Positions 3,308 to 12,727 of a DNA stretch of 64,000 bases are shown piece by piece (the first letter of the stretch is position 1; each line of letters begins with the position of its first letter). The notes under the pieces were generated by a model. It made no database searches and was not told where the DNA came from. It saw nothing but the letters and a program-made list of their open reading frames with translations. Location of the stretch: the NCBI RefSeq assembly GCF_016827605.1, contig NZ_JAEPJQ010000001.1:310001-374000 (forward strand), given 5' to 3'. The DNA is from Hyunsoonleella ulvae (GTDB taxonomy: Bacteria > Bacteroidota > Bacteroidia > Flavobacteriales > Flavobacteriaceae). Position numbers and translations under genes: made by a program.

Positions 3308-4786
3308 ATGCTTTTAAATTCAACCTTTTTTAAACTCCGTAAAATTCCCTTAATAATTACCCTTATAAGTGTTGTACTATATTGGTTTTTCGCTTACAAC
3401 TTAGTTAGGACAGATTATATAAAACTTGTGTCTCTTTACGCTGTCTTGTTCTTTATGTTTTATAAACTCGTTCAAGCTTTTAAAACTGATATAGAATTTT
3501 TAAGCTATTTAGCATTTTGTTTTAGAGCAATATTTATTCTGGCTATTCCCAACTTATCCCAAGATTTTTACCGTTTTATTTGGGACGGACGTATGATATT
3601 GGAAGGGTTTAATCCGTATCTACATACCGTAGAGTCCTTTATTAGTCAAGGCACATTGCCTGTGACTCAGGCACAAGACCTTAGAGAAGGCATGGGTGCT
3701 CTAAACGCAGGCCATTATACTAATTACCCACCTGTAAATCAATTGTGTTTTGTAATCGCTGGGATATTTGCTGGAAAAAGTATTTTAGGTTCGGCAATTG
3801 TAATGAGGTTACTAATTATAGCTGCAGACTTTGGCACTTTGTACTTTGGTAAAAAACTGTTGGAAAAACTCAATATCCCCCTCCATAATATCTTTTGGTA
3901 TATTTTAAACCCATTTATCATTATCGAGCTAACTGGAAATTTACATTTTGAAGGCGTAATGATTTTCTTTTTGATTTGGAGTTTATATCTACTCTATAGC
4001 GGTAAATGGATATGGAGCGCTGTGGTTTTAGGGCTTTCCATATCAGTAAAATTAATACCTTTGATATTTCTACCTCTATTTTTTCAGTGGTTTGTTAATA
4101 ATAAATCGAAAACTTCTACAGAAGCACCTCTAAAGTCTCCTCAAGTGGATACTCCTAATATCAACCAGAATAACACATTACATAAAAAAGCTTCAAAATG
4201 GATGCCTGCCTTCGTAGGAACGACAAGGTTAATTGGGTTTTACGGCATCGTTTTAATAACAACCATTTTATTATTTCTTCCATTTTACTCATCACAGTTT
4301 ATAAGTAACTATTCGCAAACCGTAGCACTTTGGTTTCAAAACTTTGAATTTAATGCCAGCATCTATTATATCGCTAGAGCTATAGGATACTCCTTTAGAG
4401 GGTATAATGAAATTGCTATTATCGGGAAAGTTATTCCAATAGTAGTAATAGTTGTTACATTGATTATTACATTCTTTAGAAAAAACAAAACCATTGTAGA
4501 ACTTATCACAGCAATGTTATTTGTACTCTCTTTCTACTACTTTACCAGTACAACGGTACATCCGTGGTATATTGCCACACTGTTAATACTTTCGGTATTT
4601 ACAAAATATAAATTCCCATTAATATGGAGCTTTGTAATAATACTAAGCTATCTTGCTTATATAAACCTTAACAAAGCTGACAAATCTGAAAACCTATGGA
4701 TAATAACTATTGAATACTTAATTGTGTATGGTGTTTTTCTCTATGAGATTTTTATAAAAAAAGCTCCCAAATCCTTGGAAGCTTGA
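3308..4786 (+). CDS. GT-C type membrane mannosyl/glycosyltransferase with an in-frame repeat insertion
   Basis: A 492-residue protein with roughly 11-12 hydrophobic segments. The DGRMILEGFNPYLH motif near residue 93 in the first large periplasmic loop is typical of the polyprenyl-phosphate-dependent GT-C (GT87/DUF2029-like) enzymes of Bacteroidetes. Residues about 262-310 form a hydrophilic loop that is unusual for the family. It contains W-MPAFVGTT-R (298-307), the translation of a dispersed palindromic repeat (separate entry). The enzyme probably adds a sugar to a lipid-linked or surface glycan; the sugar is unknown. Confidence 0.75.
   Translation: MLLNSTFFKLRKIPLIITLISVVLYWFFAYNLVRTDYIKLVSLYAVLFFMFYKLVQAFKTDIEFLSYLAFCFRAIFILAIPNLSQDFYRFIWDGRMILEGFNPYLHTVESFISQGTLPVTQAQDLREGMGALNAGHYTNYPPVNQLCFVIAGIFAGKSILGSAIVMRLLIIAADFGTLYFGKKLLEKLNIPLHNIFWYILNPFIIIELTGNLHFEGVMIFFLIWSLYLLYSGKWIWSAVVLGLSISVKLIPLIFLPLFFQWFVNNKSKTSTEAPLKSPQVDTPNINQNNTLHKKASKWMPAFVGTTRLIGFYGIVLITTILLFLPFYSSQFISNYSQTVALWFQNFEFNASIYYIARAIGYSFRGYNEIAIIGKVIPIVVIVVTLIITFFRKNKTIVELITAMLFVLSFYYFTSTTVHPWYIATLLILSVFTKYKFPLIWSFVIILSYLAYINLNKADKSENLWIITIEYLIVYGVFLYEIFIKKAPKSLEA
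4200..4228 (+). repeat. Dispersed palindromic repeat inside a coding region
   Basis: The stretch around gcctgccttcgtaggaacga carries an imperfect hairpin (CCTGC-CTTC-GTAGG). It matches the CCTGCCTTCGCAGGAATGAC-type element that I know as abundant in intergenic DNA of Flavobacteriia and other bacteria. Here it is translated in frame as MPAFVGTTR within a glycosyltransferase loop. The match is from memory; genome-wide copy number was not counted. Confidence 0.55.
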
Positions 4787-4791
4787 TTTTT
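4761..4791 (+). terminator. Intrinsic terminator overlapping the stop codon
   Basis: AAGCTCCCAA-atcc-TTGGAAGCTT (4761-4784) forms a 10-bp stem with one mismatch, followed by a T-rich run. The stem includes the last codons of the GT-C gene, so transcription probably ends right at the coding end. Confidence 0.6.
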
Positions 4792-4809
4792 ATCGATAAA
4801 AATTTACAA

Positions 4810-5184
4810 TTACAATTTTTCTAACTTGGTAATAGTATTTATTTCGTCCTCATCGTCCATACCATTTTCATCTTTGTATTTTTTTATGTGTTTATTAAAA
4901 GTTACCTTAAACTTTGTACCTATTAATGTATCAGAATTCAAATCAAATACGCTTAAAACCGGTTCTTCAATATCATGAAACGTTATGGTGTACTCTTCCC
5001 CATCTTTTCCTTTGGTTAAAAAATTATAACCATAATCTTCATGTCCATCAAAAGTGGCATACACAATAAAACCTTCTTGATATACCCCAAACTCATGAGC
5101 AAAAGTTCTTATAGACTTAAAACTAGAGAGCACTACAACCATGAACATTACACTTGTTACAATCAACACATTTTTTGTTTTCAT
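4810..5184 (-). CDS. Small exported protein, paralog of two neighbours
   Basis: A 124-residue protein with a hydrophobic N-terminus (VLIVTSVMFMVVVLSSF), probably a signal peptide or anchor. The rest looks like a small beta domain: FxGHEDYGYNF, EEYTITFHDIEEPVLSVFDLNSD, then F-K-V-T-F and a C-terminal INTITKLEKL. The same order of blocks recurs in the proteins at 5321-5542 and 6191-6538, so the three are tandem paralogs. No function is known to me. A stretch of Asp/Glu near the C-terminus is conserved in position. Confidence 0.6.
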   Translation of the reverse strand: MKTKNVLIVTSVMFMVVVLSSFKSIRTFAHEFGVYQEGFIVYATFDGHEDYGYNFLTKGKDGEEYTITFHDIEEPVLSVFDLNSDTLIGTKFKVTFNKHIKKYKDENGMDDEDEINTITKLEKL

Positions 5185-5315
5185 TTTTATGTTTTCTAAT
5201 TTTCGTTAAGTATCATAAAACATTAATTGCCACGACAATTCTTGCTTAGCTGTTTTTAAAATTAAAAACACAAGCCAATTTGGTAAGCTACCATCTAAAT
5301 TGTGCAGGATAAAAA

Positions 5316-5329
5316 CCTCTCTAAAGAGG
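5316..5329 (-). terminator. Intrinsic terminator, minus strand
   Basis: CCTCT-CTAA-AGAGG (5316-5329) with an A-run on its left (5311-5315) reads on the minus strand as a short hairpin followed by T residues. It overlaps the stop codon of the 5321-5542 gene. Confidence 0.5.
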
Positions 5330-5542
5330 CTTTAAACTTTCCACTCTATAAATAGGATCTTCATCATCTCCATCTTCAACAAATGTGATTTTAAAATCCT
5401 TATCAATTAGATCTTTATCGTTCTTTAAATCAAATTGCTTTAAAACACGCGGGTGTACTTCCTCAAAGGCCAATTCTTCACCATTCTCAAACCAAAAGGT
5501 AAAGTAACCGTTTTTATAAGACTTAAAAACAGCTGTTCTCAT
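5321..5542 (-). CDS. Small conserved hypothetical protein, cytoplasmic member of the paralog trio
   Basis: A 73-residue protein without a signal peptide. The blocks FKSYKNGYFTFWFENGEELAFEEVH, then FDLKND-DLIDKDFKITF, then VESLKPL align with the mature parts of the proteins at 4810-5184 and 6191-6538. It therefore looks like the bare domain without export. It is 20 bp downstream of 5563-5889, and the two probably form one transcript. The function is unknown. Confidence 0.6.
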   Translation of the reverse strand: MRTAVFKSYKNGYFTFWFENGEELAFEEVHPRVLKQFDLKNDKDLIDKDFKITFVEDGDDEDPIYRVESLKPL

Positions 5543-5562
5543 AGATTAAATATAAAAATAGT

Positions 5563-5889
5563 TTAGTCATTGTTGTCATCCTCGGGGTCTTGTTCCATTT
5601 TTGGCGGTTGTACTGCTTCTGGATCATCATTATCAAAATCTTCATAATCGTCCTCATCATAATTCTCCATGGTTACAGCTAATTTAGAACTTACTTTTAC
5701 CAGATATTTAGTATCTACGGTAGTAACCTCAACGGCTTCAATAATTTCATTATGCTGATTTCTAAAGGATATGATATGGTCATCATCGTATCCATCAGGA
5801 TACTTTTCAACTAACAGTGAGAGAATCTCTGGGGTTAATTTTTTAAAATCAACAATAACCCGCTTTAAGTTATCATTTTTTTGTTTCAT
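5563..5889 (-). CDS. Conserved acidic hypothetical protein
   Basis: A 108-residue soluble protein. The first 75 residues look like a small alpha/beta domain (VIVDFKKLTPEILSLLVEKYP, then VEVTTVDTKYLVKVSS). The last 30 are extremely acidic (DEDDYEDFDNDDPEAV and so on), ending DPEDDNND. I recall proteins of this shape as widespread in Flavobacteriaceae, sometimes mislabelled DNA primase; nothing here supports a primase. It lies just upstream of the 5321-5542 gene on the same strand. Confidence 0.55.
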   Translation of the reverse strand: MKQKNDNLKRVIVDFKKLTPEILSLLVEKYPDGYDDDHIISFRNQHNEIIEAVEVTTVDTKYLVKVSSKLAVTMENYDEDDYEDFDNDDPEAVQPPKMEQDPEDDNND

Positions 5890-6138
5890 GGTTGGTTAAA
5901 TTTTGATTTGGTCAAAAGTTTCTTAGCAAAAAGATACGGAAAAAATAAAATGTAGCAAAAGCTAGGCTATTATACAGTAATCTTTTTTCTAATTTAAATA
6001 TTTTTTTAAATATAAAACTATATGCCTAAGGTTAATTTTGCGTTATGTCAACAAAAAATTAATACTATTAAATAGAAATTGGTAATAGACTTATATGCTT
6101 TTAAAACTTCTTTAAGATCCATATAAGTAAACTAAAAA

Positions 6139-6162
6139 AAGCCACCTAAAAAAGATGGCTTT
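6139..6162 (-). terminator. Intrinsic terminator, minus strand
   Basis: AAGCCACC-taaaaaa-GATGGCTT forms a hairpin whose minus-strand reading is followed by seven T residues (the A-run at 6134-6140). It lies 29 bp after the stop of the 6191-6538 gene. The rest of the 5,890-6,190 gap is AT-rich, with nothing else I can identify. Confidence 0.7.
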
Positions 6163-6190
6163 ACGCTTAATACTTAAGAATAAGTGCTGT

Positions 6191-6538
6191 CTACAATTTT
6201 TCTAAATTGGTAATGGTTTTAACAGCGTCACCATTGTCATCAATACCTGTAGTGAATGTTACCTTAAAATTAACATCGATAAAAGTTTCAGAGTGTAAAT
6301 CATAAACACTCAACACCGGTTCTTCTATTTGCTGAAAAACCACGGTAATAGTTTCACCTTCCTCTTCAACTTCAAAATTAAAACCATCACTACTACTGCC
6401 TTTATATATGGCATTTATTTCTTCTGATTCCTGAGTTACACAAGACAATTCATTAGAGGGCACTTCGGTTGTAAAACTTGATAATGTGACAAACATCATC
6501 AAGAAACTACATAACATAAACAAAAATTTTGCTTTCAT
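6191..6538 (-). CDS. Small exported protein, third member of the paralog trio
   Basis: A 115-residue protein with an N-terminal signal (KAKFLFMLCSFLMMFVTLSSFTT). The mature part repeats the neighbour at 4810-5184 closely: DGFNFEVEEEGETITVVFQQIEEPVLSVYDLHSETFIDVNFKVTF, ending TITNLEKL. The identical IEEPVLSV-DL-S-T core shows recent shared ancestry. It has its own terminator and sits alone between two gaps. The function is not recognised. Confidence 0.6.
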   Translation of the reverse strand: MKAKFLFMLCSFLMMFVTLSSFTTEVPSNELSCVTQESEEINAIYKGSSSDGFNFEVEEEGETITVVFQQIEEPVLSVYDLHSETFIDVNFKVTFTTGIDDNGDAVKTITNLEKL

Positions 6539-6719
6539 TTTGATAAAATTTATAGATTAAATAAAAAATCGCAGGAATTTCCTGCTAGGTTAAGTTCATA
6601 ATTGTAAGTCATTCGACGTCAAAAACAACATACAATTATCATAAATACGCATGAAGACAAACTTTAGATTTAAGAGTACCTTCCTTTATCAAAAATTTAA
6701 CACTAATCCATAAAATATC

Positions 6720-7553
6720 TTAAAGCATCCTCAAGGTATTTAACTCTTGTTCTGTTAAATGCTTCCAGTGTCCACGGGGAATATCTTTTTTGGTGAGGTG
6801 CCCTATAGCTACACAATCTAAATTTAGAATATCGTAGTTAAAATGCTCAAAAATAGTTCTTATTATGGTGTTTCCTGTATTTTTAATTTTTAAGCCTATT
6901 TCTTTTTTACTAGCTCCGTCTATATAACTTATTTCCTCAACTTCAATTAACTTACCATCAGACTTAAATCCATGTTGTATTCTTTTTAAATCCTCTAACT
7001 TCAGATTTTTATCTAATTCTATGTGAAATAAACGTGCTACACCATTTTTAGAATTCGTGAATTTTTTGTGAATAGTATCGTCGTTAGTAAATAATAATAA
7101 TCCTTTTGAGTTTCTTCCTAGACGACCAATGGGCTTAATTTTAGCATTAGTAGCGTTAGCCACCAAATCCATTACGGTTCTACCTTTACCTTCACTAGTT
7201 GTAGTAGCAAAACCTTTGGGTTTATTTAATAGCACATAGGCTTTTTGCTCTGGACTTATACGAGAGCCATCATAACGCACCTCATCGCTAGGTTTAACTT
7301 TAAAGCCCATTTCGGTAATTACCTTACCATTTACAGAAACCAACCCTGTTGCTATATGCACATCTGCTTCGCGACGCGAACAAACACCTGCATTGGCAAC
7401 ATATTTATTCAGTCTTATTTCGTTAGAATTATTTTGATTTTTGAGCTGTTTTTTTGAAGACGTATTCCCTTTGGCGTGTGTAGAAAAACTCTTTTTCCCA
7501 CTACCTTTTCTATTAGATTTCCCCTTACTTCTATCGCCTTGTTGCCTATTCAT
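6720..7553 (-). CDS. RsuA/RluB-family pseudouridine synthase homolog lacking the catalytic Asp
   Basis: A 277-residue protein. Residues 1-44 are a basic, low-complexity tail. An S4 RNA-binding domain follows (IRLNKYVANAGVCSRREAD, about 46-95), then the RsuA-type catalytic fold. Family members carry GRLDxxTxGLLL with the nucleophilic Asp; here the motif reads IGRLGRNSKGLLLFTND, with Gly146 (codon GGA) in place of Asp. The later GRNRIVRR-type segment is degraded to TGNTIIRT (226-233). The C-terminal LTKKDIPRGHWKHLT block is intact. I infer a diverged, probably non-catalytic RNA-binding paralog; a true enzyme should exist elsewhere in the genome. Confidence 0.8.
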   Translation of the reverse strand: MNRQQGDRSKGKSNRKGSGKKSFSTHAKGNTSSKKQLKNQNNSNEIRLNKYVANAGVCSRREADVHIATGLVSVNGKVITEMGFKVKPSDEVRYDGSRISPEQKAYVLLNKPKGFATTTSEGKGRTVMDLVANATNAKIKPIGRLGRNSKGLLLFTNDDTIHKKFTNSKNGVARLFHIELDKNLKLEDLKRIQHGFKSDGKLIEVEEISYIDGASKKEIGLKIKNTGNTIIRTIFEHFNYDILNLDCVAIGHLTKKDIPRGHWKHLTEQELNTLRML

Positions 7554-7620
7554 TATAAATAATTTTTCGCAAAGATATACCTAATAATTTACGATTAAAG
7601 GTTTTGGATTGACGATTTAT

Positions 7621-8571
7621 CTATTTGTTGAATTTTACAGTAGATTGACGCTCTGTATTTACCCTCAATTGCGTAACATCTGGTCTGGAGTAATGTCCTA
7701 CTGCATCAAAATTCTGACGCTCCTCGTACACCTTATTAAAATCGATAGTTTCTATAATTAATCCAGATGTATGCAATACAGGCTCAACAATCCACTCACC
7801 ATCGGGTCCAGCAATACAGCTTCCTCCATTGGCCAATACTTCTGGAGCATTATTTAATATTTCCTCTAGATAAGGCGTATCTTTTGGGAAATCCTGTTTG
7901 GTCATTAAACTACTTACCGAAATCACATAAGAACGGGATTCCCTAGCAATAAATCGTGTAATATCCTTGGTATTATGATCGCTCACTGGCCAAACTGCAA
8001 TATGTAGATTTTCTCCCAATCCATATAAAGCTGCTCTGGGTAGGGGCATCCAGTTTTCCCAACAGTTTAAGCCTCCAACGGTAAAGTTTTTTAGCGGATG
8101 TACCTGCAAACCATTACCATCTCCTGGCGCCCAAGTTAAACGCTCATCGTAAGTGGGTTGCAATTTTCGGTGTACAGATTTAATTTCTCCTTTTTCATTA
8201 ATATACACTAAGGATGCGTAAATACTATGACCACCTCTATCAAGTGGTCGCTCTATAATCCCTAAATACGCAGCAATTTTATTGGCTTTGGCTAGTTTAC
8301 AAATAGTCTCTAAATCATCATCTTCAATAGTTATAGCATTTCTAACGTAATGTGCATGAAGCGCCTTATTTACTGCTTTGTTCCATTCCGCACCTCCTGT
8401 TAAGGCTAACCAAAAGGGATACCCTGGTACCAATCCTTCCCCAAAAACTATGAGTTCACAATCCTCTTTAGCAGCATCAATGATTGATTGTTCTACTTTT
8501 TTTAAGGTCTCTGCTTTATTTAACCATACTGGCGAAATTTGTGCTAAGGCCACTTTTAGTAAATTTTGCAT
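7621..8571 (-). CDS. Nitrilase / carbon-nitrogen hydrolase family enzyme
   Basis: A 316-residue protein with the full Glu-Lys-Cys triad of the nitrilase superfamily: E45 in VFGEGLVPGYP, K136 in HRKLQPTYDE and C170 in GLNCWENWMP. The CWENWMPL context and the length fit branch 1 nitrilases (nitrile to carboxylate plus ammonia) rather than amidases; the substrate is unknown. Its start codon directly abuts the stop of the ubiA-type gene upstream, so it is likely co-transcribed with the isoprenoid genes. The metabolic reason for that linkage is not evident. Confidence 0.85.
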   Translation of the reverse strand: MQNLLKVALAQISPVWLNKAETLKKVEQSIIDAAKEDCELIVFGEGLVPGYPFWLALTGGAEWNKAVNKALHAHYVRNAITIEDDDLETICKLAKANKIAAYLGIIERPLDRGGHSIYASLVYINEKGEIKSVHRKLQPTYDERLTWAPGDGNGLQVHPLKNFTVGGLNCWENWMPLPRAALYGLGENLHIAVWPVSDHNTKDITRFIARESRSYVISVSSLMTKQDFPKDTPYLEEILNNAPEVLANGGSCIAGPDGEWIVEPVLHTSGLIIETIDFNKVYEERQNFDAVGHYSRPDVTQLRVNTERQSTVKFNK

Positions 8572-9474
8572 TTAAATCCTATTTAAAATAACGCTTACAT
8601 CTATCAGTAAAATACTGAATACACCTGCAAGAATTATAAATTTTAAAATGTTATGTAATATTAAGTATTGCACCTTAGTCGAAGATATCCATAACAATAA
8701 CAAAAATATTACCAACAAAAACAGGCTTAAATAAAAAAACAAGTACATGTGACCCACTTCAAAACGATATAAAAGCAGGTATATTGGTATCAATGTCATG
8801 CTTGCTAAAACTGTAAGCATGACTTTAGACATTTTTTCTCCATATGCTACTGGAATGGTAATATAATTTTGTGCAATGTCGCCTTTGATATTTTCCAAAT
8901 CCTTGGTTAGCTCCCTCATAGAAATCATGATAAACAAGAAAATCGCATGTACAAAAATTACGGTTTCAAAATTCTTGTAGTACATAAAAATCGCGAAGAA
9001 TGGGGTTATGGTTAATATGGCCGAAGTAAGATTACCTATAAATGGCAATCTCTTTAATTTATGTGAATAAAACCAAATACCAAAAATGTAAATTGAAAAG
9101 AATAATACCGCTTTAAAGGACACATAACTCGCCATGATTACAGCAACAAAATTTAATACAAAGTAAAAAGATAGTTTTGTGTTTTGACTAACCAACCTAT
9201 CTAGTCTTGACTTTATGGGACGATTTATCAAATCTTTTTCAGAATCGTAAAAACTATTAATAATATAGCCTCCTGCAATAGTTGCTGCTGATGCTAATAC
9301 CAGCATTAATAGATTTAAATCAAACACAACTTCTTTTAAGGGTTTGTTGTATGCTAAAATATAGACTGATGTAAGGTATTGCGCTATTACAATTATTAGA
9401 ATATTGTACCCACGAACAACAGAAAACATGCTGAAAAATTTGAGTAAAATATGTTTCTGTCTTCTGGAAAGCAT
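8572..9474 (-). CDS. UbiA-family prenyltransferase
   Basis: A 300-residue protein with 8-9 membrane helices. Both Asp-rich motifs that bind Mg-prenyl diphosphate are present: NSFYDSEKD at 73-81 and D192-LENIKGD199. The DxxNIKGD form and the flanking NRPIKSR resemble the (geranyl)geranylglyceryl-phosphate prenyltransferase-like branch found in Bacteroidetes. The acceptor is not certain. Its place beside mevalonate kinase and diphosphomevalonate decarboxylase supports an isoprenoid role in the membrane. Confidence 0.85.
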   Translation of the reverse strand: MLSRRQKHILLKFFSMFSVVRGYNILIIVIAQYLTSVYILAYNKPLKEVVFDLNLLMLVLASAATIAGGYIINSFYDSEKDLINRPIKSRLDRLVSQNTKLSFYFVLNFVAVIMASYVSFKAVLFFSIYIFGIWFYSHKLKRLPFIGNLTSAILTITPFFAIFMYYKNFETVIFVHAIFLFIMISMRELTKDLENIKGDIAQNYITIPVAYGEKMSKVMLTVLASMTLIPIYLLLYRFEVGHMYLFFYLSLFLLVIFLLLLWISSTKVQYLILHNILKFIILAGVFSILLIDVSVILNRI

Positions 9475-9541
9475 GCTATAGACTTATAACCCTTCAACTA
9501 GGCTCTGGGTAATAATTAACAGGAATAAAGATAGTTGAAAT

Positions 9542-10471
9542 TTAGAAGTTATAGACTACTTCTAATTTATAATCTGAAAGGGATTGTTTTGCTCTCTCTA
9601 TGTCTTCAGTAAAACCAAGAATGTAGCCTCCACCTCCAGAACCACATAATTTTAAATAGTAGTCGTTTGTTTCAATACCTTTTTTCCAAAGTTCATGAAA
9701 CTGTTGAGGAATCATAGGTTTAAAATGGTTTAAAACAATCTTAGAAAGTTGCTTTGTATTTCTAAATAACGACTTTAGGTCTCCTTTTAGGAAATCATCA
9801 ACACAAGCATCAGTATGTTTGATGAACTGATTTTTTAGCATACTACGGAAACCTTCTTGCTTCATTTTTTCCATGAACAAACCTACCATTGGGGCAGTTT
9901 CTCCTATGATGCCACTGTCTAACAAAAACACGCCACCCTTACCTTCACTTTGCTGTGCCGGAATACCTGTAGCCTCTATATTATCTTTTGAATTGATAAG
10001 GATTGGAATACTTAAATAGCTATTCAAAGGGTCTAAACCCGAAGAACTCCCATGAAAAAAAGATTCCATAGCTGAGAAAATAGATTTTAGCTTCAGAAGT
10101 TTTTCTCTGGTTAAATTCTCTAGAACCGTAATTTTATCAAAAGCATATTTATCATAAATAGCTGCAACTAATGCACCACTACTTCCTACACCATACCCTT
10201 GTGGAATAGACGAGTCGAAATACATACCAGAGTTTACATCTTGCAATAGCTTATCGATGTCAAACCTTACTACAGCATCATCAATACTTTGGATGTATTC
10301 TGTAAACTTTCTTAAACTTTCATTTGATATTATAGCTTCCTCCGAAACGTTATCGTCCTTTTTTAAGGCTCCATTATAAAAACTGTAGGGTATAGATAAT
10401 CCTTTAGAGTCTTTTATGATACCATATTCTCCAAAGAGTAAAATTTTCGAGTAAAAGAGAGGTCCTTTCAT
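9542..10471 (-). CDS. Mevalonate kinase-like GHMP kinase
   Basis: A 309-residue GHMP-fold protein. The ATP-binding motif 2 is P90-QGYGVGSSGAL, the likely catalytic residues are E135 in SAMESFFHG and D147 in SSGLDPL, and the C-terminal GSGGGGYILGF is GHMP motif 3. It follows the diphosphomevalonate decarboxylase gene on the same strand after a 70-bp gap, so it most likely phosphorylates mevalonate in the same pathway. The N-terminal motif SKILLFGEYGII is typical. A phosphomevalonate kinase role cannot be fully excluded, but the GLDP and motif spacing favour mevalonate kinase. Confidence 0.85.
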   Translation of the reverse strand: MKGPLFYSKILLFGEYGIIKDSKGLSIPYSFYNGALKKDDNVSEEAIISNESLRKFTEYIQSIDDAVVRFDIDKLLQDVNSGMYFDSSIPQGYGVGSSGALVAAIYDKYAFDKITVLENLTREKLLKLKSIFSAMESFFHGSSSGLDPLNSYLSIPILINSKDNIEATGIPAQQSEGKGGVFLLDSGIIGETAPMVGLFMEKMKQEGFRSMLKNQFIKHTDACVDDFLKGDLKSLFRNTKQLSKIVLNHFKPMIPQQFHELWKKGIETNDYYLKLCGSGGGGYILGFTEDIERAKQSLSDYKLEVVYNF

Positions 10472-10541
10472 AGTGGCTATTTTGTTTGAGAAAATATGTT
10501 TAACAAATATACTATTTTTTTAAACAAAAAAATTTATATCC

Positions 10542-11651
10542 TTATACTTTATTAGCCCCCAAACCAATAACGTCGCAAATATACTGTCCATTTTGGCAAT
10601 ATGCAACTAATTCATTTTGAATGAATTCTAAAACTTGAGTCGTTTCGTGTTCTGGGTACAGCACATGTACGTTGGCACCTGCATCTAAGGTAAAACAAAT
10701 CTTAGAGTCAGTTTCTTTTCTAAATCTCCAAATTTTATTGATAATTTCGAGTGTATTTGGTTTCATTAAAATAAAATACGGCATACTGGTCATCATCATG
10801 GCATGCAATGTTAAAGCCTCACTTTCTACCAAAGCTATGAACTTATCTAAATCGCCCTCCTTAAGGATAGAAACCATATCTGTAAGATTAACATGGGCTT
10901 GCTTAAAACGCTCTTGAGCAAAAGGATGACCGTGCATTAAATTATGGCCAACTGTGCTACTTACCTGTTTTTCTCCTTTATCAACTAAAAGAATGGTATC
11001 TTGATAATTTTTGAAGTTTTGGTGCACATCATAAGGATATTTTACACCAAAGAGATCAGAACTCCCTTCTATGCCGGCATGCTTACCCCAAACTACTAAA
11101 TCGCCCTCTATACTTCTACAGGCACTACCTGAACCCAATCGTGCTATAAAGGATGCTTTTTTGATAAAGTATTCTTCATTTAGCGATTCCTCGACTGCGC
11201 TCGGAATGACATCAGGCTTTAAAAGTTCTTTTTCAATACTCATTAAACACAATGCCAAAGCGCTCATGCCTGATGCAGAAGAGGCGATTCCAGAGCTGTG
11301 CGGGAATGTGTTTGAGGTTTCTATTTTAAAATGATAGTCTTTTAAAAATGGTAAATAGACTTCTACCCTTTTAAAAAATGTTTCAATTTTAGGTTTGAAA
11401 TCGTTTTTCTGTTCTCCATCTAAAAAGATATCAAAAGAAAAATCATTAGTATCTTGTTTTCTTATAAAGCTTAAAGATGTTATGGTTTTGCAATTACTAA
11501 GGGTAAAACTAATGGAAGGGTTTTCGGGTATTTGATGTTTCTTTTTACCCCAGTATTTAATTAAAGCAATATTACTAGGAGAAGACCAGCTAAAGCATCC
11601 CTTATCAACAGTATTTGAGTAGGATTTTGGTATAAATTCTTTTTCTATCAT
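10542..11651 (-). CDS. mvaD: Diphosphomevalonate decarboxylase with a repeat-encoded insertion
   Basis: A 369-residue protein carrying the family signatures SNIALIKYWGKK (26-37), SFTLS, HSSGIASSASGMSALAL (118-134) and ARLGSGSACRS (170-180). It makes isopentenyl diphosphate from mevalonate diphosphate with ATP use and loss of CO2. Residues about 146-160 (PDVIPSAVEESLNEEYF) are an extra segment between two helices and correspond to a dispersed DNA repeat (11185-11213). The catalytic residues lie outside it, so activity is probably kept. It is the first gene of a minus-strand run continuing to mevalonate kinase and ubiA. Confidence 0.92.
   Translation of the reverse strand: MIEKEFIPKSYSNTVDKGCFSWSSPSNIALIKYWGKKKHQIPENPSISFTLSNCKTITSLSFIRKQDTNDFSFDIFLDGEQKNDFKPKIETFFKRVEVYLPFLKDYHFKIETSNTFPHSSGIASSASGMSALALCLMSIEKELLKPDVIPSAVEESLNEEYFIKKASFIARLGSGSACRSIEGDLVVWGKHAGIEGSSDLFGVKYPYDVHQNFKNYQDTILLVDKGEKQVSSTVGHNLMHGHPFAQERFKQAHVNLTDMVSILKEGDLDKFIALVESEALTLHAMMMTSMPYFILMKPNTLEIINKIWRFRKETDSKICFTLDAGANVHVLYPEHETTQVLEFIQNELVAYCQNGQYICDVIGLGANKV
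11185..11213 (-). repeat. Dispersed palindromic repeat inside mvaD
   Basis: The stretch around attcctcgactgcgctcgga is a near-palindrome (ATTCC..CGA / TCG.GAAT). On the minus strand it translates as VIPSAVEES. I know this sequence as a common intergenic repeat of Bacteroidetes. Here it is inserted in frame in a conserved enzyme. Copy number was not counted. Confidence 0.6.
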
Positions 11652-11737
11652 CTATCTTTTTTAACTGCACAAAGATAAGGTTTCAATTGATTAGAGCCTT
11701 TAAGAAACTACATAAAACAAATTCTATGCTTTTTTTA

Positions 11738-11758
11738 GATCCCGCAAAAGAGCGGGAT
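11738..11758. repeat. Perfect hairpin between mvaD and the DUF1697 gene
   Basis: ATCCCGC-aaaaga-GCGGGAT forms a 7-bp GC-rich stem in AT-rich DNA. Neither strand shows a T-run immediately after the stem, so a plain intrinsic terminator is not well supported. It may be another copy of a small palindromic repeat or a weak terminator for the DUF1697 gene, which ends 39 bp to its right. Confidence 0.4.
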
Positions 11759-11796
11759 TAGTTCAGCTTATAGTTTATAATGCGTCTTACAGACTT

Positions 11797-12327
11797 TTAT
11801 AAACTAAGCTTCATTAATTTTACCATTGTTTTATAATTTCTGGCTGTTGCTGTAATTTTTAATTTCCGTTCAAAGAAATTGTTACTAAATTTTGCAGTCC
11901 CATACCCTGTGGAGCAATAAAAATATACCGCCCTATCTGTTATTTTAAACTCTTCATTGGGATAGGATAACTGAGACACACTATCAACTAATATTTTATC
12001 TGCTTTAGAATATAGCATCATAAAATAACTGTTCTCTTTCTTTTCTTGAGGAAACGGACAATCATCAAAAATTTGTTTTAGCGTTTCTGGTGTTAATACC
12101 AAAACAGGCACTTCAAAGCCAAAATAAGATGTAATAGCTTCATGAATTATATGCTCTAATTCTACTTTATCTTTTTCTAAAGATTTAAAAATTACATTCC
12201 CACTTTGTATATATGTTTGTACGTCTTCCAAACCAGATTTAGTAAGCAATTCACGCAAGTCTACCATGGGAATCTTTTTCTGCCCACTTACGTTTATACC
12301 TCTTAAAAGTGCAATATATTTAGTCAT
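11797..12327 (-). CDS. DUF1697 family protein
   Basis: A 176-residue protein beginning MTKYIALLRGINVSGQKKIPM, followed by L-TYIQSGNVIF. These are the hallmark blocks of DUF1697 (YAAALLRGINVGG-K-M and Y-QSGNVVF). The fold is known but no reaction is established. Its start overlaps the end of the DUF4174 gene by 8 bp, so the two are coupled. Confidence 0.85.
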   Translation of the reverse strand: MTKYIALLRGINVSGQKKIPMVDLRELLTKSGLEDVQTYIQSGNVIFKSLEKDKVELEHIIHEAITSYFGFEVPVLVLTPETLKQIFDDCPFPQEKKENSYFMMLYSKADKILVDSVSQLSYPNEEFKITDRAVYFYCSTGYGTAKFSNNFFERKLKITATARNYKTMVKLMKLSL

Positions 12328-12727
12328 TCTTTTTGTTTCTGAGTTCTTGTCGTCTCATCGGCATTTTGTCAATAAGATTAAAAAACGTATTTGCGTTTTC
12401 TACGTTATTCGAATTAAACTTTTTGCCACCATCTAACCCTAGCAACATATTATTAAATCCCGTTAGTTTTTTGTCCACTAAAACTACTTTTGCATCATTG
12501 TTAAAATCATAGTATTTACATGTATCGCCTATACATTTGTAAACCACCAACCTTCTATCTATAAGTTTATCTTTTTCTGTTTTTAGAATATTAAATTGTT
12601 CTATGGCACGTGTCTCATTGTTTTTATCCGCTGAAATTACAATCACACGATTTTCCCATAGATGTTTATCTAGATCTTGAGACCACACTGTATGTGATAA
12701 GAAAAACACCAAAACCAGATACTTCAT
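12320..12727 (-). CDS. DUF4174-like exported protein
   Basis: A 135-residue protein with a signal peptide (MKYLVLVFFLSHTVWSQ). The mature part carries WENRVIVISADKNN near its start and FNILKTEKDKLIDRRLVVYKC, as in DUF4174 (thioredoxin-like fold without an active-site CxxC), and ends LIDKMPMRRQELRNKK. The family often has GLDGGKK--R near the C-terminus; GLDGGKKF is visible here. It lies 4 bp from the flavoprotein gene upstream in a tight operon. The role is unknown. Confidence 0.7.
   Translation of the reverse strand: MKYLVLVFFLSHTVWSQDLDKHLWENRVIVISADKNNETRAIEQFNILKTEKDKLIDRRLVVYKCIGDTCKYYDFNNDAKVVLVDKKLTGFNNMLLGLDGGKKFNSNNVENANTFFNLIDKMPMRRQELRNKKND

Follow-up and report, generated by a model that had tools for sequence, protein, structure and literature searches.

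The window analysed here comprises 64,000 nucleotides of the Hyunsoonleella ulvae genome. At 6720–7553, on the reverse strand, it carries a gene with an ATG start and a product of 277 amino acids, which was classified as a putative pseudoenzyme among the S4-domain pseudouridine synthases of the RsuA/RluB/RluF group and as a probable RluB ortholog. All features of this gene lie on the same strand. A basic extension at the N-terminus (residues 1–42, 7428–7553) was predicted to be disordered (pLDDT under 50), and its net charge was positive in the clade defined below (median +10.5, n = 76). The S4 RNA-binding domain follows (residues 47–92, 7278–7415; Pfam PF01479, 42.8 bits, cut-off 22.8), and after it the PseudoU_synth_2 fold, for which the Pfam match (49.4 bits, cut-off 26.8) spanned only profile positions 2–98 of 152; by ending at position 98, it left the motif III end unmatched. 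The predicted structure had a mean pLDDT of 82 and matched RluF bound to RNA (3dh3, Z = 24.2), RluB bound to RNA (Z = 22.7), crystal structures of RsuA and an entry that is, by its title, RluB on an assembly particle (9cl9, Z = 16.6). Both S4 domain and synthase fold were therefore present by Pfam, model and PDB matches, as a sequence-only reading of this gene had proposed; its companion claim of a preserved C-terminal block held only in part, given the replacement of Arg212 described next.

Residue equivalences were taken from an alignment to E. coli RluB, whose numbering is used for the functional positions. Residues 143–146 of the window protein read GRLG, against the family motif GRLD, and the catalytic Asp is absent; the substitution, first noticed as a GGA codon at residue 146, was confirmed at 7116–7118 and corresponds to Asp110. 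Phe176 (7026–7028) occupies the place of Tyr140 and Cys247 (6813–6815) that of Arg212. The motif III segment (residues 225–233, 6855–6881) reads NTGNTIIRT, against SGRNRIVRR or SGKNRIVRR in typical intact family relatives, which bears out the erosion of the later Arg-rich segment already described; here Arg192, Arg194 and Arg198 are replaced by Gly, Thr (Thr229) and Thr respectively. The damage had thus been understated as a double loss, since Asp110, Tyr140, Arg194 and Arg212 are all replaced, in addition to Arg192 and Arg198. Two arginines with roles in RNA contact were retained, Arg60 (7374–7376), equivalent to Arg17, and Arg144 (7122–7124), equivalent to Arg108. In E. coli RluB, the former holds the RNA loop on the S4 domain and the latter displaces the target base, according to the available portions of PMC3919597.

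Assignment to a subfamily was less clear. NCBIfam models gave the window protein 123.8 bits for RluF, 81.5 for RsuA and 71.5 for RluB, all far below cut-off; the RluB equivalog requires 290 bits, and an intact family ortholog (L110) also fell short of it at 123.5. For the general pseudouridine synthase model, TIGR00093, the window protein scored 87 bits, below the cut-off of 109.3, while L110 scored 144.4. Since these models separate RluB, RluF and RsuA neither for the window protein nor for intact L110, the assignment to RluB, and hence the rRNA target, is tentative. The same genome encodes a separate RluF paralog (L002) with Asp, Tyr and Arg intact, which reached 296.3 bits with the RluF model, short of that model's cut-off of 318. 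No intact second copy of the window gene came to light in the genus: in H. ulvae and the 11 other genomes, searches with the window protein listed only the ortholog itself and RluF. A PF00849 search of the H. ulvae genome returned six proteins: the window protein, RluF and four others, which we take to be RluA/RluD- and RluE-like from their length and score. The catalytic residues were intact in all 20 RluF paralogs checked, and inspection of 20 RluFs by eye for loop changes hinting at altered specificity found nothing decisive.

The gene adjoins a putative operon on the reverse strand. Upstream of it lie a nitrilase-like carbon-nitrogen hydrolase (7621–8571), a UbiA prenyltransferase (8572–9474), a GHMP kinase of the mevalonate-pathway type, so named from its context (9542–10471), and a diphosphomevalonate decarboxylase (10542–11651). 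Among 80 named relatives, a UbiA match lay within 3 kb in 76 and a nitrilase match in 38, so the nitrilase between UbiA and the window gene seems to be a variable member of the cluster. A homolog of UbiA, nitrilase or mevalonate kinase was found nearby for 67 of the 76 clade orthologs, 77 of the 80 named relatives and 21 of the 29 intact family orthologs; that altered and intact genes share a neighbourhood supports their orthology. Outside the family such a neighbourhood was rare, with UbiA nearby in 5 of 25 cases from the order. On the other side of the gene, three small reverse-strand ORFs (4810–5184, 5321–5542 and 6191–6538) share by eye a similar stretch of the VLSVYDL...FKVTF type, gave no Pfam match and look like duplicated small proteins next to the operon. 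An Rfam scan of 4500–12500 returned no match.

The loss of the catalytic residue was common to the genus as sampled, GRLG being present in all 11 other orthologs; the Gly is therefore not an isolated change. Within Flavobacteriaceae, 149 genomes were sampled and 141 yielded an ortholog, of which 140 were readable at position 110, a fragment (L248) lacking it. These comprised 85 with Gly, 41 with Asp, 7 with Glu and 7 with Ser, Asn, Lys, Gln or His. The window protein's clade was defined as 76 full orthologs among the 85 with Gly110. In every one of the 76, Gly110 was accompanied by Phe140, Cys212 and loss of Arg194, with Arg17 and Arg108 both retained; the sequence-only reading had asked whether the Gly is fixed, and no close relative with Asp was encountered. 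Fragment L248 was assigned to the clade by its Phe140 and Cys212 and has kept Arg194, such that this arginine is lost in 76 of 77 with L248 counted. Ten of ten further congeners and all 80 named relatives agreed with the clade pattern. The latter were chosen as nearest to the query, some belonging to the same species as sampled genomes, and so show breadth rather than frequency; they include Hyunsoonleella, Tamlana, Algibacter, Winogradskyella, Lacinutrix, Bizionia, Gelidibacter, Psychroserpens and others, with Hyunsoonleella pacifica nearest at 90% identity. The new cysteine at position 212 (Cys247) also marks the clade, being invariant in the 76, the 90 further members and L248, while Arg212 was invariant in all 51 intact orthologs compared.

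Trees were built without the active-site columns 110, 140, 192, 194, 197 and 198. The 27 clade rows included in a 107-row tree were monophyletic. For a careful tree, 15 of its rows were removed, all of them on long branches except one from the outgroup, along with 13 clade rows; the 14 clade members left were again monophyletic (support 100/99), on a stem branch of 0.37. No stop was counted inside any listed match from the clade. Judged from these alignments, the window protein is an old pseudoenzyme and not the product of a recent mutation.

Beyond the clade, the active site was altered in 111 of 140 readable family orthologs, against none of 25 orthologs from other families of the order, all of which had Asp, Tyr and Arg. 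All three residues were also present in 6 of 8 orthologs from the class and in 12 of 15 from the rest of the phylum, where Asp was present in 15 of 15; these outside-family orthologs were best-scoring matches from 60 and 61 genomes and are biased toward well-conserved proteins. On this distribution, the intact enzyme looks ancestral. The changes required between Asp and other residues numbered at least 10 on the careful tree and 14 on a fuller one, and the active site is, by the topology of these trees, independently lost in other branches of the family, a pattern that went beyond what had been noticed in the window alone. An ortholog was called intact if it had Asp110, Tyr140, Arg or Lys at 194, and Arg108, as was the case for 29 of 140; these 29 include three with Lys194 (L106, L233 and L234) that were placed near or among changed rows.

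Two other well-supported clades were altered differently from that of the window protein. In the first of these, with 13–14 rows, Arg108 has given way to Lys in 13 of 14, and D, E, G, H, N and S all occur at the drifting position 110; in the second, with 7–8 rows, Lys108 is combined mostly with His194. Lys at the position equivalent to Arg108 inactivates RluA, as the available text of PMC3919597 reports, so the clades with Lys108 may be dead as well. The larger decayed group (L098, L105–L109, L209, L213, L218, L220–L222 and L225–L227) was also observed to have Arg17 fixed, alongside the Lys that nearly always stands at 108. Two orthologs from other families of the class had altered residues at positions 110, 140 and 194, reading E/Y/Q in L290 (genome G252) and D/F/N in L292 (genome G256), and both genomes had a second, RluF-like match; decay is therefore not confined to Flavobacteriaceae.

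Substitution rates indicated that the altered gene is held by selection. When each of the 11 congeneric genomes was compared with H. ulvae, dN of the dead protein against its window ortholog was 0.051–0.119 and that of the RluF paralog 0.064–0.160, the dead protein having the lower value in 11 of 11 same-genome pairs; dN was compared because dS was saturated in many pairs. Median dN/dS was 0.10 for the clade (530 pairs drawn from 92 rows, of which 90 were distinct, with some species represented twice) against 0.22 for 42 intact pairs, which were few and diverse. Taken together, the lower dN and low dN/dS place the dead protein under at least as much constraint as its living paralog. The usual marks of a pseudoenzyme were thus found, namely lost catalytic residues, a kept fold and purifying selection, with RNA contacts kept at Arg17 and Arg108 only. 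The earlier proposal of a retained non-catalytic role is well supported as far as catalytic loss under selection is concerned; its ribosome-assembly component is taken up below as an inference.

The presence of RluF was associated with the state of RluB. RluF was called by a search with the H. ulvae RluF, true matches having at least 55% identity and listed cross-matches at most 37%, and it was absent from 18 of 149 family genomes. It was missing from 14 of 29 genomes with an intact RluB, against 2 of 111 with a changed RluB (Fisher p = 1.1e-9, ignoring relatedness); one of these two was 80% complete, while the other was 1.9 Mb in size and had a strongly diverged copy. On the tree, 11 of 11 inferred RluF losses fell on RluB-intact branches, whose share of the branch length is 25.8% (p about 3e-7); many forks of this gene tree are weak, and the figure treats losses as independent. 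This placement used 91 family rows, comprising 27 of the 76 clade members and all others, with genome G015 left out and G077 not among the rows. A strict test on independent pairs was not significant, there being only 3–4 strongly supported pairs. The association, which the sequence-only reading did not address, suggests that RluF backs up the chemistry lost by RluB. Several genomes outside the family had an RluF-like match together with an intact RluB, so RluF alone does not bring on decay. Conversely, 7 of 149 family genomes keep RluF with no RluB gene, and three of these reach a completeness of 90% or more; the dead gene is therefore dispensable in some lineages, as in G134, a genome that is 99% complete and in a single contig. 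In the sections of PMC3919597 consulted, E. coli RluF modifies U2604, a neighbouring uridine of the same hairpin, and slightly modifies U2605 as well.

The hairpin in question is H93 of 23S rRNA. Its exact target sequence, with both uridines, was present in the 23S rRNA of H. ulvae, which rules out loss of the RNA target in this genome. Exact matches were found in 59 of 149 family genomes. Twelve picked genomes were searched allowing up to three mismatches: two matched exactly, one only with three mismatches and nine lacked a match, single-contig genomes among them. The failed matches were read as missing or variant rRNA.

The explanation that we favour, and hold to be moderately probable, is that the window protein is a dead descendant of an RluB-type enzyme, kept by selection, which docks on its ancestral rRNA hairpin as a 50S assembly factor, its catalytic loss being tolerated through RluF. 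From its residues, the protein presumably makes pseudouridine no longer; in E. coli RluB, Y140F leaves about 3% activity and R108A 0.6% (PMC3919597, available portions). If it is an RluB, it would still dock on H93, which lies at the peptidyl transferase centre; the S4 domain would sit on the hairpin loop and Arg108 in the stem. Gly110 would remove the nucleophile and still offer its main-chain amide to uracil O4, to judge from the RluB interactions set out in the accessible text of PMC3919597. RNA binding may be weaker now that arginines have gone from motif III. The protein would then act transiently in rRNA folding or in assembly of the 50S subunit, and the paralog RluF would have made the loss of catalysis tolerable. 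As far as the accessible part of PMC11194073 shows, RluB is found on precursor particles, RluB re-expressed in an E. coli strain without ten modification enzymes gave no benefit to growth or 50S assembly, and RluC in the same study needed its catalytic Asp.

A related scenario, which we put forward only tentatively, divides the work at H93: RluF would be the sole active enzyme, while the dead RluB, equipped with the base-flipping Arg108 and a Gly whose backbone can still hold uracil, would serve as a dedicated clamp or placeholder on H93 and open the stem to RluF or to later steps of 50S assembly. RluF could then no longer be lost, and the arrangement would have arisen several times. Recruitment of the dead enzyme to another RNA or to a protein instead of its original hairpin, for instance as a regulator binding mRNA or tRNA, with Cys247 as part of the new function, is likewise rather unlikely. 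The absolute replacement of Arg212 by Cys (76/76 and 90/90 further members) and the stem branch of 0.37 leading to the clade are compatible with a gain of function, and several arginines have gone from motif III, which in RluB binds the RNA major groove; yet Arg17 and Arg108 would have no need to stay invariant if the target were entirely new, and the neighbourhood of the gene is unchanged. Slow neutral decay, in which RluB became dispensable once RluF was present and persists merely because it has yet to be lost, would fit the drift at position 110 in the group of 14 and the loss of the gene, with RluF kept, in 7 of 149 genomes. For the window's clade we consider it improbable, however, given that Gly, Phe and Cys are fixed, that median dN/dS is about 0.1, that RluF has the higher dN in 11 of 11 pairs, and that no stop was counted inside the listed clade matches.

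An enzyme that remains active through a rebuilt site and another nucleophile appears very improbable. Its fold is kept in the predicted model and the invariant Cys247 could in principle take part, but Tyr140 and Arg194 were lost along with Asp, a residue that the portions of PMC3919597 available describe as universal among known pseudouridine synthase sequences and whose mutation abolishes activity in TruA, TruB, RluA and RsuA. Sequencing error or a recent point mutation has a negligible chance of being correct and was ruled out, the same residue occurring in 11/11 of the genus and 76/76 of the clade together with three further matched changes.

The case bears on whether rRNA modification enzymes are important through the modification itself or through binding during assembly: nature appears to have run the catalytically dead experiment in most sampled Flavobacteriaceae. 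The dead form seems to have become fixed in one large clade and to be held there under tighter constraint than the living paralog. Many RluB-like genes of the family may be wrongly annotated as rRNA pseudouridine synthases, and the active-site pattern predicts which species would lack the corresponding pseudouridine. Two bacterial pseudouridine-mapping papers do not mention Bacteroides in their main texts, so far as these were available. Pseudoenzymes derived from RNA enzymes are already known. Among the papers listed by a literature search, judged by titles and the starts of abstracts, none reported such a loss in a bacterial rRNA pseudouridine synthase; to that extent, the present case appears new.

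Among known systems, the closest likeness is to E. coli RluB, the 23S pseudouridine-2605 synthase, with which the window protein shares the S4 domain, the synthase fold, Arg17 and Arg108, and from which it differs in lacking Asp110, Tyr140, Arg194 and Arg212, at 26–28% identity over the structural alignment. RluF, the 23S pseudouridine-2604 synthase, is the best fold match (3dh3, Z = 24.2), although the genome has a separate, intact RluF paralog. The same fold occurs in pseudouridine-synthase-like proteins of trypanosomatid mitoribosome large-subunit assembly intermediates, according to the titles of 7am2, 7aoi and 6yxx; those proteins, which we take to be RluA/RluD-like, are distant from the window protein (Z about 10, 11–13% identity). 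The E. coli rRNA methyltransferases RlmB and RlmKL promote growth or 50S assembly even as catalytically inactive variants (PMC11194073, in its available part); unlike the present case, these are laboratory mutations in another enzyme family, and RluB had no such effect in that study. Ssd1 and other fungal RNase II pseudonucleases have lost their active site in at least four lineages and kept other functions, as the available text of PMC8097288 describes; they differ in being fungal nucleases rather than rRNA modification enzymes.
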